39,271 bases of DNA from an uncultured Pelosinus sp. (GTDB taxonomy: Bacteria; Bacillota; Negativicutes; DSM-13327), in assembly GCA_946415545.1 (NCBI GenBank), contig CAMKSY010000002.1, forward strand, positions 1 through 39,271, in the 5' to 3' direction. Shown here piece after piece: positions 4,521 to 27,401 of the stretch; position 1 is the stretch's first letter; every line of letters starts with the position of its first letter. Made by a program: the position numbers and the translations under genes. A model generated the notes under the pieces. It was not told where the DNA came from. It did no database searches and saw nothing but the letters and a program-made list of their open reading frames with translations.

Positions 4521-5135
4521 ATGAGAAAAATATCGATTATCGCAATTCTATGTCTTTTTGTAATGTCAATGACCACCATTGTATCTGCTGATGAGATGAT
4601 GACTCCGCAACCCACAAAAAACGATGCTGCTCAAGCGGTCGTTAAGACATCGTATCGCCTCGCTATTGTTCCTTATATTAACTCTACAGAAGAAAACAAA
4701 GGTTACATACAAGAAATTGTCGATGGTAAATATACGGAACACTATTCCAGCAAAAATTTTCAGATCATTCCCTTAGAGGAGGTTCAAAAGGCTCTAAATA
4801 GTACGGGCTATGATATTTCAAATCGGGAGCTTGCTGAAAAAGACATATTAGCTTCTGTTGCGAAGGAAACAAATGCGGATTATGTGGTTGCCATGGAGAT
4901 ATCACAATTAATAACTACAAGGCATATGAGCTTTTTTCAAGCTAAAGTAGTAACAAAAGCAAAGCTGCGTTACAAATTTTATAACGCAGAAAAGGATAAA
5001 GTTGCTTCATTCCAAGTGACGGGACTTTCGGAAAATAAAACGGTGTTTGGAGATGTTGGATACAAAGATCCAATTACAAAAGCGTTGAACCAGGCAATGG
5101 ATGATGCTAATGAAAAAATAAAAAGTTACTTATAA
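4521..5135 (+). CDS. Secreted protein of unknown function, paralogue of the protein at 380
   Basis: The 204-residue product has a clear signal peptide (MRKISIIAILCLFVMSMTTI, cleavage near VSA-DE). The mature part begins with a strand YRLAIVPYINSTEENKG, contains EHYSSKNFQIIPLEEVQKAL, then SVAKETNADYVVAMEI, KAKLRYKFYNAEKDK and a C-terminal helix of Asp/Asn/Lys-rich residues. NADYVVAMEI followed by a strand and Y-N/D-A is shared with the protein at 380, so both belong to one family. The early strand plus I-P-L-E-E-V-Q-K-A-L is reminiscent of periplasmic proteins that sense or bind at the cell envelope, but I can assign no function. A -10-like TATAAT lies at 4481-4486. Confidence 0.85.
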   Translation: MRKISIIAILCLFVMSMTTIVSADEMMTPQPTKNDAAQAVVKTSYRLAIVPYINSTEENKGYIQEIVDGKYTEHYSSKNFQIIPLEEVQKALNSTGYDISNRELAEKDILASVAKETNADYVVAMEISQLITTRHMSFFQAKVVTKAKLRYKFYNAEKDKVASFQVTGLSENKTVFGDVGYKDPITKALNQAMDDANEKIKSYL

Positions 5136-16550: not shown

Positions 16551-16674
16551 TTTATCCTTGGGTGTGGTGTATGATCACCAGTATCATGAGGCACGACTGC
16601 AAAGGAAATTTACCAATAAGTAAAGAAGCTAACAGTAAATTTGAACAGCAGCGTAAACCTTAGATACACTTTCA

Positions 16675-16740
16675 CTCGTAGACAGGCATTTTACGGCTGC
16701 CGGTAGAAACTTCTGGGCCATATCCCCAAAATTATACGAG
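16675..16740 (-). ncRNA. Guanine-class purine riboswitch aptamer
   Basis: Read on the minus strand, the RNA has P1 CUCGUA/UACGAG, the conserved UAUGG, AAGUUUCUACC and GUAAAAUGCCUG parts and the two kissing loops of purine aptamers. The specificity base preceding P1 on the 3' side is C (position 16681 as G on the plus strand), as in guanine rather than adenine riboswitches. Binding of guanine or hypoxanthine would favour the terminator at 16487-16550 and shut off xpt-pbuX. Confidence 0.95.
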
Positions 16741-16758
16741 ACTATTTACATGTGGTTT

Positions 16759-16787
16759 ATTGTAGCAGTCTCAAATCCCATTGTCAA
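16759..16787 (-). promoter_or_regulatory. Promoter of the xpt-pbuX operon
   Basis: On the minus strand TTGACA (16787-16782) and TACAAT (16764-16759) are 17 bases apart. Transcription would start a few bases before the riboswitch aptamer. Confidence 0.88.
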
Positions 16788-23627: not shown

Positions 23628-23870
23628 TGATCCATCTTTTCTTAGGTAAGAGGATGAAAATGTAATTAATGAACAAAATAAAAGTGCATACCCAAGCTGA
23701 GTAAGGGGAGGTCTGAAATTATACTTCAGCATATAAGCGTTGAACCATTTGGTGGAACTATGCTTCTTATCAATTATTTGATGATGCATAATTATTATGG
23801 CAAATGCCGCTATGCAGCAAGAGCTAATCTTTGTTTCTGCGGCTTATTCTATATAAAGTGAGGTTTGTAC

Positions 23871-24773
23871 ATGCAACAAGAACAACCAAAACAACAGAAA
23901 CAACCAAAACAACCAAAACAACCAAAACAACGGGTCTGGAAAGAAATAAAGCGATATATTATCCTTTTTATCGGTTCTGTTATCTACGCTGCTGGTCTGG
24001 AAATATTCTTAGTTCCCAACAACGTTATCGATGGCGGTGTGGTTGGTATTGCCATTATGGCGAGTCATCTGACGGGCTTGCCGCTGGGCGTATTCTTAAT
24101 TACCATAAATATTCCATTCATTTATTTGGGATATAAGCAAATTGGTAAAACTTTTACATTATCAACGATATTTTCGATTATCGTCTTGTCCTATTTCACT
24201 AAAATGTTCTTGCCGGTTCCCGGTTTTACAGATGATTTATTCTTAGCGTCAATCTTTGGCGGAATCATTTTAGGGATCGGTGTAGGACTCATTGTGCGTT
24301 ATGGCGGATCCTTAGATGGTTCAGAAATAGTAGCAATCTTGATGGACAAAAAAAGCAGCTTTTCTGTGGGCGAAATTGTCATGATTATCAACTTATTTAT
24401 CTTAAGTGCAGCCGGATTGGTATTTGGCTGGGATCGAGCCATGTATTCTTTGGTCACATATTTTATCGCTTCGAAGGTAATTGATATCGTCATTGAAGGT
24501 CTGGATGAATCAAAAGCTGTTATTATTGTTTCAGATCATTCGGCATCTATTGCCGAAGCCCTCATGGCCCGTCTGGGAAGGGGTGTGACGATCTTACATG
24601 GAGAAGGTGCCTATAAAGGTGACGAAAAACATATTCTCTACACAGTGATTACTAGGCTGGAGATAGCAAAATTTAAATCGCTTGTTTCAGAGATTGATGA
24701 AGATGCTTTTATAACGATCAACGATGTGCATGATGTAATGGGTGGCACGTTTAAAAAGAAAGCCATTCACTAA
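23871..24773 (+). CDS. YitT-family membrane protein (DUF161 and DUF2179)
   Basis: I chose the ATG at 23871 after AAAGTGAGG; a TTG six bases upstream is less likely. The 300-residue protein starts with a Gln-Pro-Lys repeat (about residues 5-20), then about five hydrophobic segments containing YAAGLEIFLVPNNVIDGGVV and YGGSLDGSEIVAI, and a cytoplasmic C-terminal DUF2179 domain of about 80 residues (KAVIIVSDHSASIAEALMAR, GRGVTILHGEGAYKG). The conserved GG/DG motifs of YitT are present. Family function is not settled. Confidence 0.9.
   Translation: MQQEQPKQQKQPKQPKQPKQRVWKEIKRYIILFIGSVIYAAGLEIFLVPNNVIDGGVVGIAIMASHLTGLPLGVFLITINIPFIYLGYKQIGKTFTLSTIFSIIVLSYFTKMFLPVPGFTDDLFLASIFGGIILGIGVGLIVRYGGSLDGSEIVAILMDKKSSFSVGEIVMIINLFILSAAGLVFGWDRAMYSLVTYFIASKVIDIVIEGLDESKAVIIVSDHSASIAEALMARLGRGVTILHGEGAYKGDEKHILYTVITRLEIAKFKSLVSEIDEDAFITINDVHDVMGGTFKKKAIH
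23883..23930 (+). repeat. Five 9-base tandem units encoding Gln-Pro-Lys
   Basis: CAACCAAAA is repeated five times (one copy CAACAGAAA) from 23883 to 23927, then CAACGG. It lies just after the start codon and codes QPK QQK QPK QPK QPK. Copy number could change by slippage without shifting the frame. Confidence 0.75.
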
Positions 24774-26017: not shown

Positions 26018-26250
26018 CCTACCATCATTGTCCCAATCGTAAATAATCGCCCTTCAGGCGTTGCATTTCTTGTATCTATTCCAGATACTCTCCACTGTTT
26101 CCTGCTATACTAGTGAGAAGACAAAAAACGGGATGTATATTTTTATGCCTCTCGGGGTTATTTACAATACAGGCAGGTCTTTTAAGAAGCTTGGCAGAAA
26201 GATAATAAACATAATTATTGAGAACGAGACGTTAGGGAGGAGAAATAATA

Positions 26251-26586
26251 ATGGAAAGTAATCAACCCATTGCTATCTTAAATGGTGCTATTATTACAGC
26301 AGATGGAGAATATTCCTGCCGGACAATCAGCTTGGAAGAGTGCAAAAAATTAATTCAATCTGCATCTGAAATTATTTCTGCAGTAGGGCATAAGGCAACA
26401 GCAGAAATAATTACCGACCTCTTAGAGAGAGAAGTTACTTTGAATCGAATTGACTTTCACCAAGAAGCAGGGCAGCAGGCACTGGTATTCAAGCTCAACA
26501 GGCGTCCTCCTGAGGGAATCATCCTCACCAGGGATGAAATTGAAGCATTCGGATACCAGTTCCAGTTACTATCCAGGAATTCGTAA
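26251..26586 (+). CDS. DUF1874 family, Crn2/AcrIII-1-type ring nuclease homologue
   Basis: A 111-residue protein. It matches the viral AcrIII-1 pattern from memory: an opening strand (IAILNGAII), SAVGHKATAEIITDLL with His47, strand NRIDF, ALVFKLNRRPPEGIILTRDEI with Arg85 and Glu88, and a final strand. His47, Arg85 and Glu88 fall at the same residue numbers as the active-site residues I remember for SIRV1 gp29. That family degrades cyclic tetra-adenylate, the second messenger of type III CRISPR systems, and occurs in viruses, mobile elements and, as Crn2, beside type III loci. No cas gene is in this window. The ATG follows AGGGAGGAG; an extended -10 TGCTATACT is at 26103-26111. Confidence 0.8.
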   Translation: MESNQPIAILNGAIITADGEYSCRTISLEECKKLIQSASEIISAVGHKATAEIITDLLEREVTLNRIDFHQEAGQQALVFKLNRRPPEGIILTRDEIEAFGYQFQLLSRNS

Positions 26587-26656
26587 TTCAGGTGTTGTGT
26601 AAAGAAATCTACAATGAAATGATGATGGGAAAAAATCTTTGGAGGATACTTTACAG

Positions 26657-27355
26657 ATGCTTAACTTCATTGGCAGCGGAAGTGCTTTTAATACGCAATT
26701 AGGAAATACGAGTGCTTTTATAAAGAAAAAGGATAGTTTATTACTTATTGACAGTGGTGGAACAGTCTTTCACAGGCTTCGAGAATTAAAGATACTTGAA
26801 GAATTGAAAAAAATATACATTATCATTACTCATACTCACCCTGACCACGTAGGAAGTCTTGGAGAGGTAATTTTTTATTCCTATTACATTCTAGGTCATA
26901 AGCCAACTGTATTGTTCCCTAATGATGAACTAATGAAGAGTTTTTTGACGAATATAGGAGTCAGCCAGGAAATGTATTTACTGGAGAGTAGCTTTAACGT
27001 TACCTTCGCAGATGAAAACTTGGGAAAGATAGATATTAATTTTCTGCCAGTCTCACATGTAGAAACCATTCCAGCATACGGCTTTGTTATGAGGGAAAGA
27101 GAAGGTGTGATTTACTATAGCGGAGATTCAAATCATATAGAGGATGAAATTATTTCGAAACTAAAGAATGGAAAACTTGATCGCCTCTATCAAGATACCT
27201 GTGGACTTGATTATGAGGGTAACAGCCATATGTCATTAAGAAAGCTGAAAGAGACAATTCACTTCGACTTACGAAATAAGGTTTATTGTATGCATTTAGA
27301 CCAGCACATTGACATAGAAGAGGTTGTACATCAAGGTTTTCAGGTTGTGAAGTAA
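26657..27355 (+). CDS. Metallo-beta-lactamase-fold hydrolase
   Basis: The 232-residue protein starts at the ATG at 26657 (GGAGGA 11 bases upstream; the TTG at 26639 is inside the ribosome site). FIGSGSAFNTQLGNTSAFI, LLIDSGG, the metal motif THTHPDHVGS (His59, His61, Asp63, His64), SHVET, YSGDSN and MHLDQH near the end match an RNase Z/phosphodiesterase-like MBL fold. It lies about 70 bases behind the DUF1874 gene on the same strand, with a shared terminator, so the two probably form an operon. The substrate is unknown; a phosphodiester is likely. Confidence 0.85.
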   Translation: MLNFIGSGSAFNTQLGNTSAFIKKKDSLLLIDSGGTVFHRLRELKILEELKKIYIIITHTHPDHVGSLGEVIFYSYYILGHKPTVLFPNDELMKSFLTNIGVSQEMYLLESSFNVTFADENLGKIDINFLPVSHVETIPAYGFVMREREGVIYYSGDSNHIEDEIISKLKNGKLDRLYQDTCGLDYEGNSHMSLRKLKETIHFDLRNKVYCMHLDQHIDIEEVVHQGFQVVK

Positions 27356-27364
27356 TCTTGAAGA

Positions 27365-27401
27365 AAATCCTGCAAAGTTTAAACAAACTTTGCAGGATTT
27401 G
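27365..27401 (+). terminator. Terminator of the DUF1874-MBL pair
   Basis: AAATCCTGCAAAGTTT (27365-27380) pairs exactly with AAACTTTGCAGGATTT (27385-27400). Downstream, 27402-27605 shows no gene. Confidence 0.8.

Follow-up and report, generated by a model that had tools for sequence, protein, structure and literature searches.

A solitary DUF1874 gene resident in the chromosome of Pelosinus and its relatives encodes a predicted ring nuclease

Introduction

Descriptions of DUF1874 ring nucleases cast them either as anti-CRISPRs of viruses or as components of type III CRISPR loci. A stretch of 39,271 nt from an uncultured Pelosinus (Negativicutes, Sporomusaceae), termed the window (contig G000:C2 of genome G000), carries a gene of this family, and its setting raises the question of what such a gene is doing there. 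The genus assignment agrees with named relatives that share 91 to 92% protein identity. A preliminary description, made from the sequence alone, had reported a solitary DUF1874 gene at positions 26251 to 26586, lying among ordinary metabolic genes and without cas genes, and had proposed that it was either a captured anti-CRISPR or a housekeeping Crn2. It had also suggested an HMM search, structural modelling and a search of the genome for a type III locus, all of which were carried out.

Gene, protein family and fold

An open reading frame with an ATG start, encoding 111 amino acids, is present on the forward strand at 26251 to 26586, preceded by a ribosome-binding site read from the sequence (GGGAGGAG, 26235 to 26242, forward strand). 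The protein belongs to PF08960, as the preliminary description had assumed, with a score of 100.1 bits (E 8.4e-29) against a curated cut-off of 26 bits and with the whole domain covered (profile positions 1 to 100 of 101). It also matched PHROG 5063 (2e-20) and the PADLOC Csx16 model (8e-17), and the solved structures found by sequence were AFV3-109 (9e-15), the Marinitoga Csx1-Crn2 fusion, STIV B116 and SIRV1 ORF114a/gp29. An AlphaFold2 monomer model built with 16 homologues as input had a mean pLDDT of 88.6. The top Foldseek matches of this model were 2j6b (TM 0.85), 8y7g (Csx1-Crn2 with cyclic tetra-adenylate, cA4; 0.87), 6scf (AcrIII-1; 0.81), 2j85 and 2x4i, and the search returned no scoring match from any other fold. 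The gene product is thus a DUF1874 (STIV_B116-like) protein with the AFV3-109/AcrIII-1 ring-nuclease fold.

Active site and N-terminal motif

His47, Arg85 and Glu88 had been matched in the preliminary description to the residue numbers of the SIRV1 gp29 active site. The profile alignment to 2x4i (SIRV1 ORF114a) bears this out, since it spans residues 37 to 99 in both proteins and positions 47, 85 and 88 therefore carry the same numbers. All three residues are invariant in 36/36 aligned homologues, as are Asn11 and Arg66, so that the active-site His and the conserved Arg and Glu of a DUF1874 ring nuclease are in place. We take Arg85 and Glu88 to be positioned at the scissile phosphate. Catalysis by SIRV1 gp29 depends on His47, and the H47A variant of AcrIII-1 still binds cA4, the residue being required for cleavage and not for binding (PMC7213978); its equivalent in Csx1-Crn2, H495, is required there (PMC7293037).

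The N-terminal 'LNTSI' motif, by contrast, has changed in the Negativicutes copies, in which its near-invariant Thr-Ser pair is replaced by Gly-Ala. Residue 12 is Gly in all 12 copies and residue 13 is Ala in 11 of them, whereas outside the clade (n=24) residue 12 is Thr in 23 sequences and Ser in one, residue 13 is mostly Ser or Thr, and Gly12 or Ala13 occurs in none of these 24 aligned sequences. The floor of the ligand cavity of AFV3-109 is formed by the beta1-beta2 loops (PMC1796864). In our model a strand at residues 7 to 10 ends just before residues 12 and 13, and we infer that these two residues sit in the beta1-beta2 loop. Loss of the Thr-Ser pair may alter binding and weighs against a role in quenching cA4; AFV3-109 itself has Ser-Ala at these positions, so the Gly-Ala change need not abolish binding.

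Genomic neighbourhood

The earlier statement that the gene lies among ordinary metabolic genes and apart from cas genes holds within the window. In four Pelosinus genomes it is flanked by a gpsA-like gene and an MBL-fold hydrolase gene, and the gene content between these two markers differs among the four; in G006 and G007 it begins 2 nt past a dienelactone-hydrolase gene. The annotated neighbours in other genera (diaminopimelate dehydrogenase, coat-type genes, an acyltransferase, TctC) are likewise ordinary chromosomal genes. Neither in the window nor in other bearers with annotated neighbours was an integrase, phage or transposon gene recognised beside the DUF1874 gene, except in G040, where it is adjoined by a large serine recombinase (L061, 7779 to 9266, reverse strand), the sole such copy in the clade. 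A MazE/ParE-type toxin-antitoxin pair lies near the gene in G139.

An older context is suggested by W06 (window 4521 to 5135, forward strand), which encodes a 204-amino-acid predicted secreted protein without a known Pfam or NCBIfam family. It lies 0.9 kb from the DUF1874 gene in genus g10 (G017, G035), 5.7 kb from it in Anaerospora (G115) and 22 to 36 kb from it in four Pelosinus genomes (G000, G002, G004, G005). Allowing for the 39 genes of the window and genomes of 4 to 5 Mb, the chance of such proximity in three lineages was roughly estimated as below 1e-6. Because this is hardly coincidental, the DUF1874 gene was probably already present in the common ancestor of these three lineages, and W06 probably marks its ancestral neighbourhood. 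When G001 and G003 were compared as empty sites, G001 lacked an ortholog of the gpsA flank, and in G003 this flank sat at the edge of a contig. The upstream regions of all copies were mostly not alignable.

A link to sporulation was considered and dropped: Coat_F or DUF3231 genes adjoin the gene in G017/G035 and G095 but are absent there in G040 and G139, and the upstream elements are of the ordinary extended -10 type. Elsewhere in the window, a purine riboswitch aptamer was recognised at 16659 to 16759 on the reverse strand (Rfam RF00167, E 1.9e-11), and the N-terminus of a YitT-family protein opens with a repeat rich in Gln, Lys and Pro (QPKQQKQPKQPKQPKQ, 23865 to 23930, forward strand), its start possibly having been called too early.

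Transcription signals and the MBL-fold neighbour

A candidate extended -10 promoter of the pattern TGnTATAMT (TGCTATACT) is located at 26103 to 26111 on the forward strand. The pattern occurs upstream of 7/12 copies, namely the window copy and all six copies outside Pelosinus, compared with 4.7% of control upstream regions, and was absent from the 250 nt upstream of the copies in the other five Pelosinus genomes. Most copies outside Pelosinus are followed by a terminator-like hairpin, and the DUF1874 gene is a self-contained single-gene unit with a candidate promoter of its own.

In the window an MBL-fold hydrolase gene (26657 to 27355, forward strand) starts 70 nt downstream of the DUF1874 gene and may be co-transcribed with it. 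The start is placed at ATG 26657, after GGAGG at 26641 to 26645, the listed open reading frame beginning at TTG 26639. A transcript covering both genes in this genome would probably end at an intrinsic terminator-like hairpin with a 16-bp stem and a T-rich tail (27365 to 27400, forward strand). The best PDB match of the hydrolase was 7fct (E 7e-56), an entry named 'Metal beta-lactamase'. The protein is related to Apyc1-type cyclic-nucleotide phosphodiesterases (phmmer 8.5e-12 against Apyc1 7u2r) and falls short of Apyc1 membership (PF23023, 39.9 bits against a cut-off of 50). In four Pelosinus genomes, then, a ring-nuclease homologue is neighboured by a relative of cyclic-nucleotide phosphodiesterases. 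The MBL gene was rejected as a conserved functional partner, as it lies elsewhere in G006 and G007 and no close copy of it sits near the DUF1874 gene in the other genera.

Distribution, phylogeny and selection

The gene was found in 6/8 Pelosinus species genomes and, above the PF08960 cut-off, in 12 of 381 Negativicutes genomes belonging to six genera, with a protein length of 111 amino acids in every copy. In a tree of these 12 copies with 19 viral or phage, one plasmid and four other bacterial sequences, the Negativicutes copies formed one group (support 100/99) containing no viral member. Within it the Pelosinus copies formed a group of their own, and the copies of G006 and G007, which occupy a different locus, were sisters. 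Identity inside the clade is 68 to 92%; the viral copies are mostly 40 to 59% identical over their length, the closest at 59%, and all records in a separate phage set were below 60% identity. Pairwise dN/dS was approximately 0.03 to 0.22 for pairs with estimable dS, and the Negativicutes copies are under purifying selection. The GC content of the gene tracks that of its host from 0.417 to 0.556. The DUF1874 gene is a long-settled resident of the chromosome.

CRISPR and cyclic-nucleotide systems in the bearer genomes

The search for a type III locus found none in G000 (85% complete, 412 contigs), where Cas10 (PF22335) had no match. Weak PF22335 matches of 22 to 24 bits, under the cut-off of 27 bits, were obtained in four of the 11 other bearers (G007, G040, G115, G139) and are probably GGDEF proteins. 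No RAMP (PF03787) was found in any of the 12 bearers, and the positive controls G055 and G031 were detected in both searches. Four near-complete relatives (G002, G004, G006, G007) carry the gene without RAMPs and without Cas10 above the cut-off. SMODS CD-NTases and the Card1 nuclease were likewise not found in the bearers.

The CRISPR system present in G000 is of another type. A locus on a separate contig (L113, G000:C6:14000-32916) is type I-B-like, with the gene order Cas6-(584 aa)-(321 aa)-Cas5b-Cas3-Cas4-Cas1b-(94 aa) and about 50 repeats, and its Cas5 and Cas1 are assigned to type I-B by the models. Two diverged repeats are situated across the cas genes from the array (L113:18469-18568). 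A mutual exclusion of DUF1874 and Cas10 was considered and dropped, since strong Cas10 matches (E < 1e-29) in 0/12 bearers versus 26/189 others, with about 1.6 expected, do not by our estimate differ significantly; what is claimed for the bearers is the absence of Cas10, not its avoidance.

Proposed role and alternatives

A vertically kept single-gene lineage in genomes where no type III system was detected points to a stand-alone quencher of cA4 or to a substrate outside CRISPR. We lean, with modest confidence, towards the former, in which the DUF1874 protein is a predicted cA4-cleaving ring nuclease that quenches incoming type III signalling; the dimer, substrate, chemistry and role are all predictions. 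The protein would form a homodimer with a central cavity that takes up cA4, where His47 would serve as the general acid protonating the leaving group, with Arg85 and Glu88 acting at the scissile phosphate; cleavage of the ring would yield linear A2>P or A2-P. Whenever a type III system or another cA4-making element acted in the cell, cA4 would be destroyed and the cell shielded from toxic CARF nucleases. The biochemistry of the family (PMC7293037, PMC7213978, PMC7371418) includes protonation of the leaving group by the His general acid (PMC7371418) and the products A2>P and A2-P (PMC7293037). A standing quencher of transferred type III signalling appears the most economical role where no resident source of cA4 is known, and such an enzyme would blunt type III systems gained by gene transfer. 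By the same token, with no cA4 source known in the bearer genomes, it would be mostly idle, a state hard to reconcile with strong purifying selection; the patchy occurrence across the Negativicutes also counts against it.

In the main rival reading, the Negativicutes clade may have been retuned, keeping the catalytic His, Arg and Glu while acting as a housekeeping enzyme on another host ligand, for example some other cyclic oligonucleotide or RNA 3' ends rich in purines. Purifying selection although no Cas10 or CD-NTase was detected, the clade-specific Gly-Ala replacement and the reported trimming of RNA 3' ends by Csx1-Crn2 (PMC7293037) speak for such an enzyme; the catalytic residues are unchanged, however, AFV3-109 likewise has Ala at position 13, and no conserved operon partner indicates a pathway, and we regard this alternative as possible but on the unlikely side. 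A more specific proposal is that a DUF1874 enzyme working independently of CRISPR is maintained in Sporomusaceae-type bacteria, its altered N-terminal motif being suited to an undescribed endogenous cyclic or oligonucleotide signal. It is offered tentatively and is doubtful; were it true, ring nucleases would be housekeeping enzymes as well as immune brakes or viral weapons.

Of the two possibilities proposed in the preliminary description, recent capture is not supported. A captured viral AcrIII-1, stranded in this strain by a prophage or an integrative element, would suit the finding that most other family members recovered belong to phages, viruses of archaea or mobile elements (PMC1796864) and the recombinase in G040, but is improbable given a single clade spanning six genera and present in most of the genus Pelosinus, a closest viral copy outside that clade, gene GC matching host GC, and the lack of recognised mobile genes beside any other annotated bearer copy. 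The quencher explanation leaves room for an ancient capture. 'Housekeeping Crn2' came closer, yet no type III system was found in G000, its near-complete relatives or any Negativicutes bearer. An ordinary Crn2 whose type III system was missed through incomplete assembly or by the searches is conceivable for a draft genome in 412 contigs, but the near-complete relatives, the detected controls and the type I-B nature of the G000 locus make it extremely improbable. The protein might, finally, be a binder (a sponge or a nucleic-acid-binding protein) and not an enzyme, as AFV3-109 bound dsDNA in vitro (PMC1796864); the invariance of His47, which AcrIII-1 needs for cleavage but not for binding (PMC7213978), renders this very unlikely.

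Comparison with known systems

The AcrIII-1 proteins (SIRV1 gp29/ORF114a, 2x4i and 6scf; AFV3-109, 2j6b; phage THSA-485A) have the same fold (TM 0.71 to 0.85) at 19 to 34% identity in structural alignments, and the catalytic H47, R85 and E88 of the SIRV1 protein share their numbers with the Pelosinus protein. The Pelosinus protein differs in its Gly-Ala, where Thr-Ser is the norm for the N-terminal motif. The AcrIII-1 proteins are encoded by virus genes, whereas the Pelosinus gene is chromosomal, in a clade for which no viral members were found, and is not carried by a recognisable virus, prophage or mobile element in the window. Upstream of the DUF1874 gene of two Fusobacterium phages, phiFN37 and Fnu1, lies a gene for a radical-SAM protein (L122, 2130 to 2882; L125, 88 to 867), possibly a counter-defence partner and in one of the two annotated as a GTP 3',8-cyclase.

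Crn2, including Marinitoga Csx1-Crn2 (8y6z, 8y7f, 8y7g), is a cellular DUF1874 protein with the same active site and 24 to 28% identity, but what defines it is its association with type III CRISPR loci, and no such locus was found around the Pelosinus gene or in the bearers. Csx16, which reportedly resembles 2j6b in structure and cleaves cA4 (PMC12409355), is known from type III loci; its PADLOC model matches the Pelosinus protein, which is STIV_B116-like by Pfam. YddF, of Bacillus subtilis ICEBs1 and a plasmid family, is a bacterial DUF1874 protein like the Pelosinus one, but is borne on an integrative element or plasmid, and the plasmid copy is 34% identical and joined to the clade by a very long branch. 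Bacterial homologues were earlier placed in proviral elements (PMC1796864). In a 2025 survey of ring nucleases, 7 type III loci had Crn2 and 36 phages had AcrIII-1; the survey covered only the surroundings of Cas10 or type III loci and phages (PMC12409355), so that solitary chromosomal copies fell outside it. The Pelosinus gene represents a solitary resident DUF1874 lineage that is neither a classic AcrIII-1 nor the Crn2 of a type III locus.
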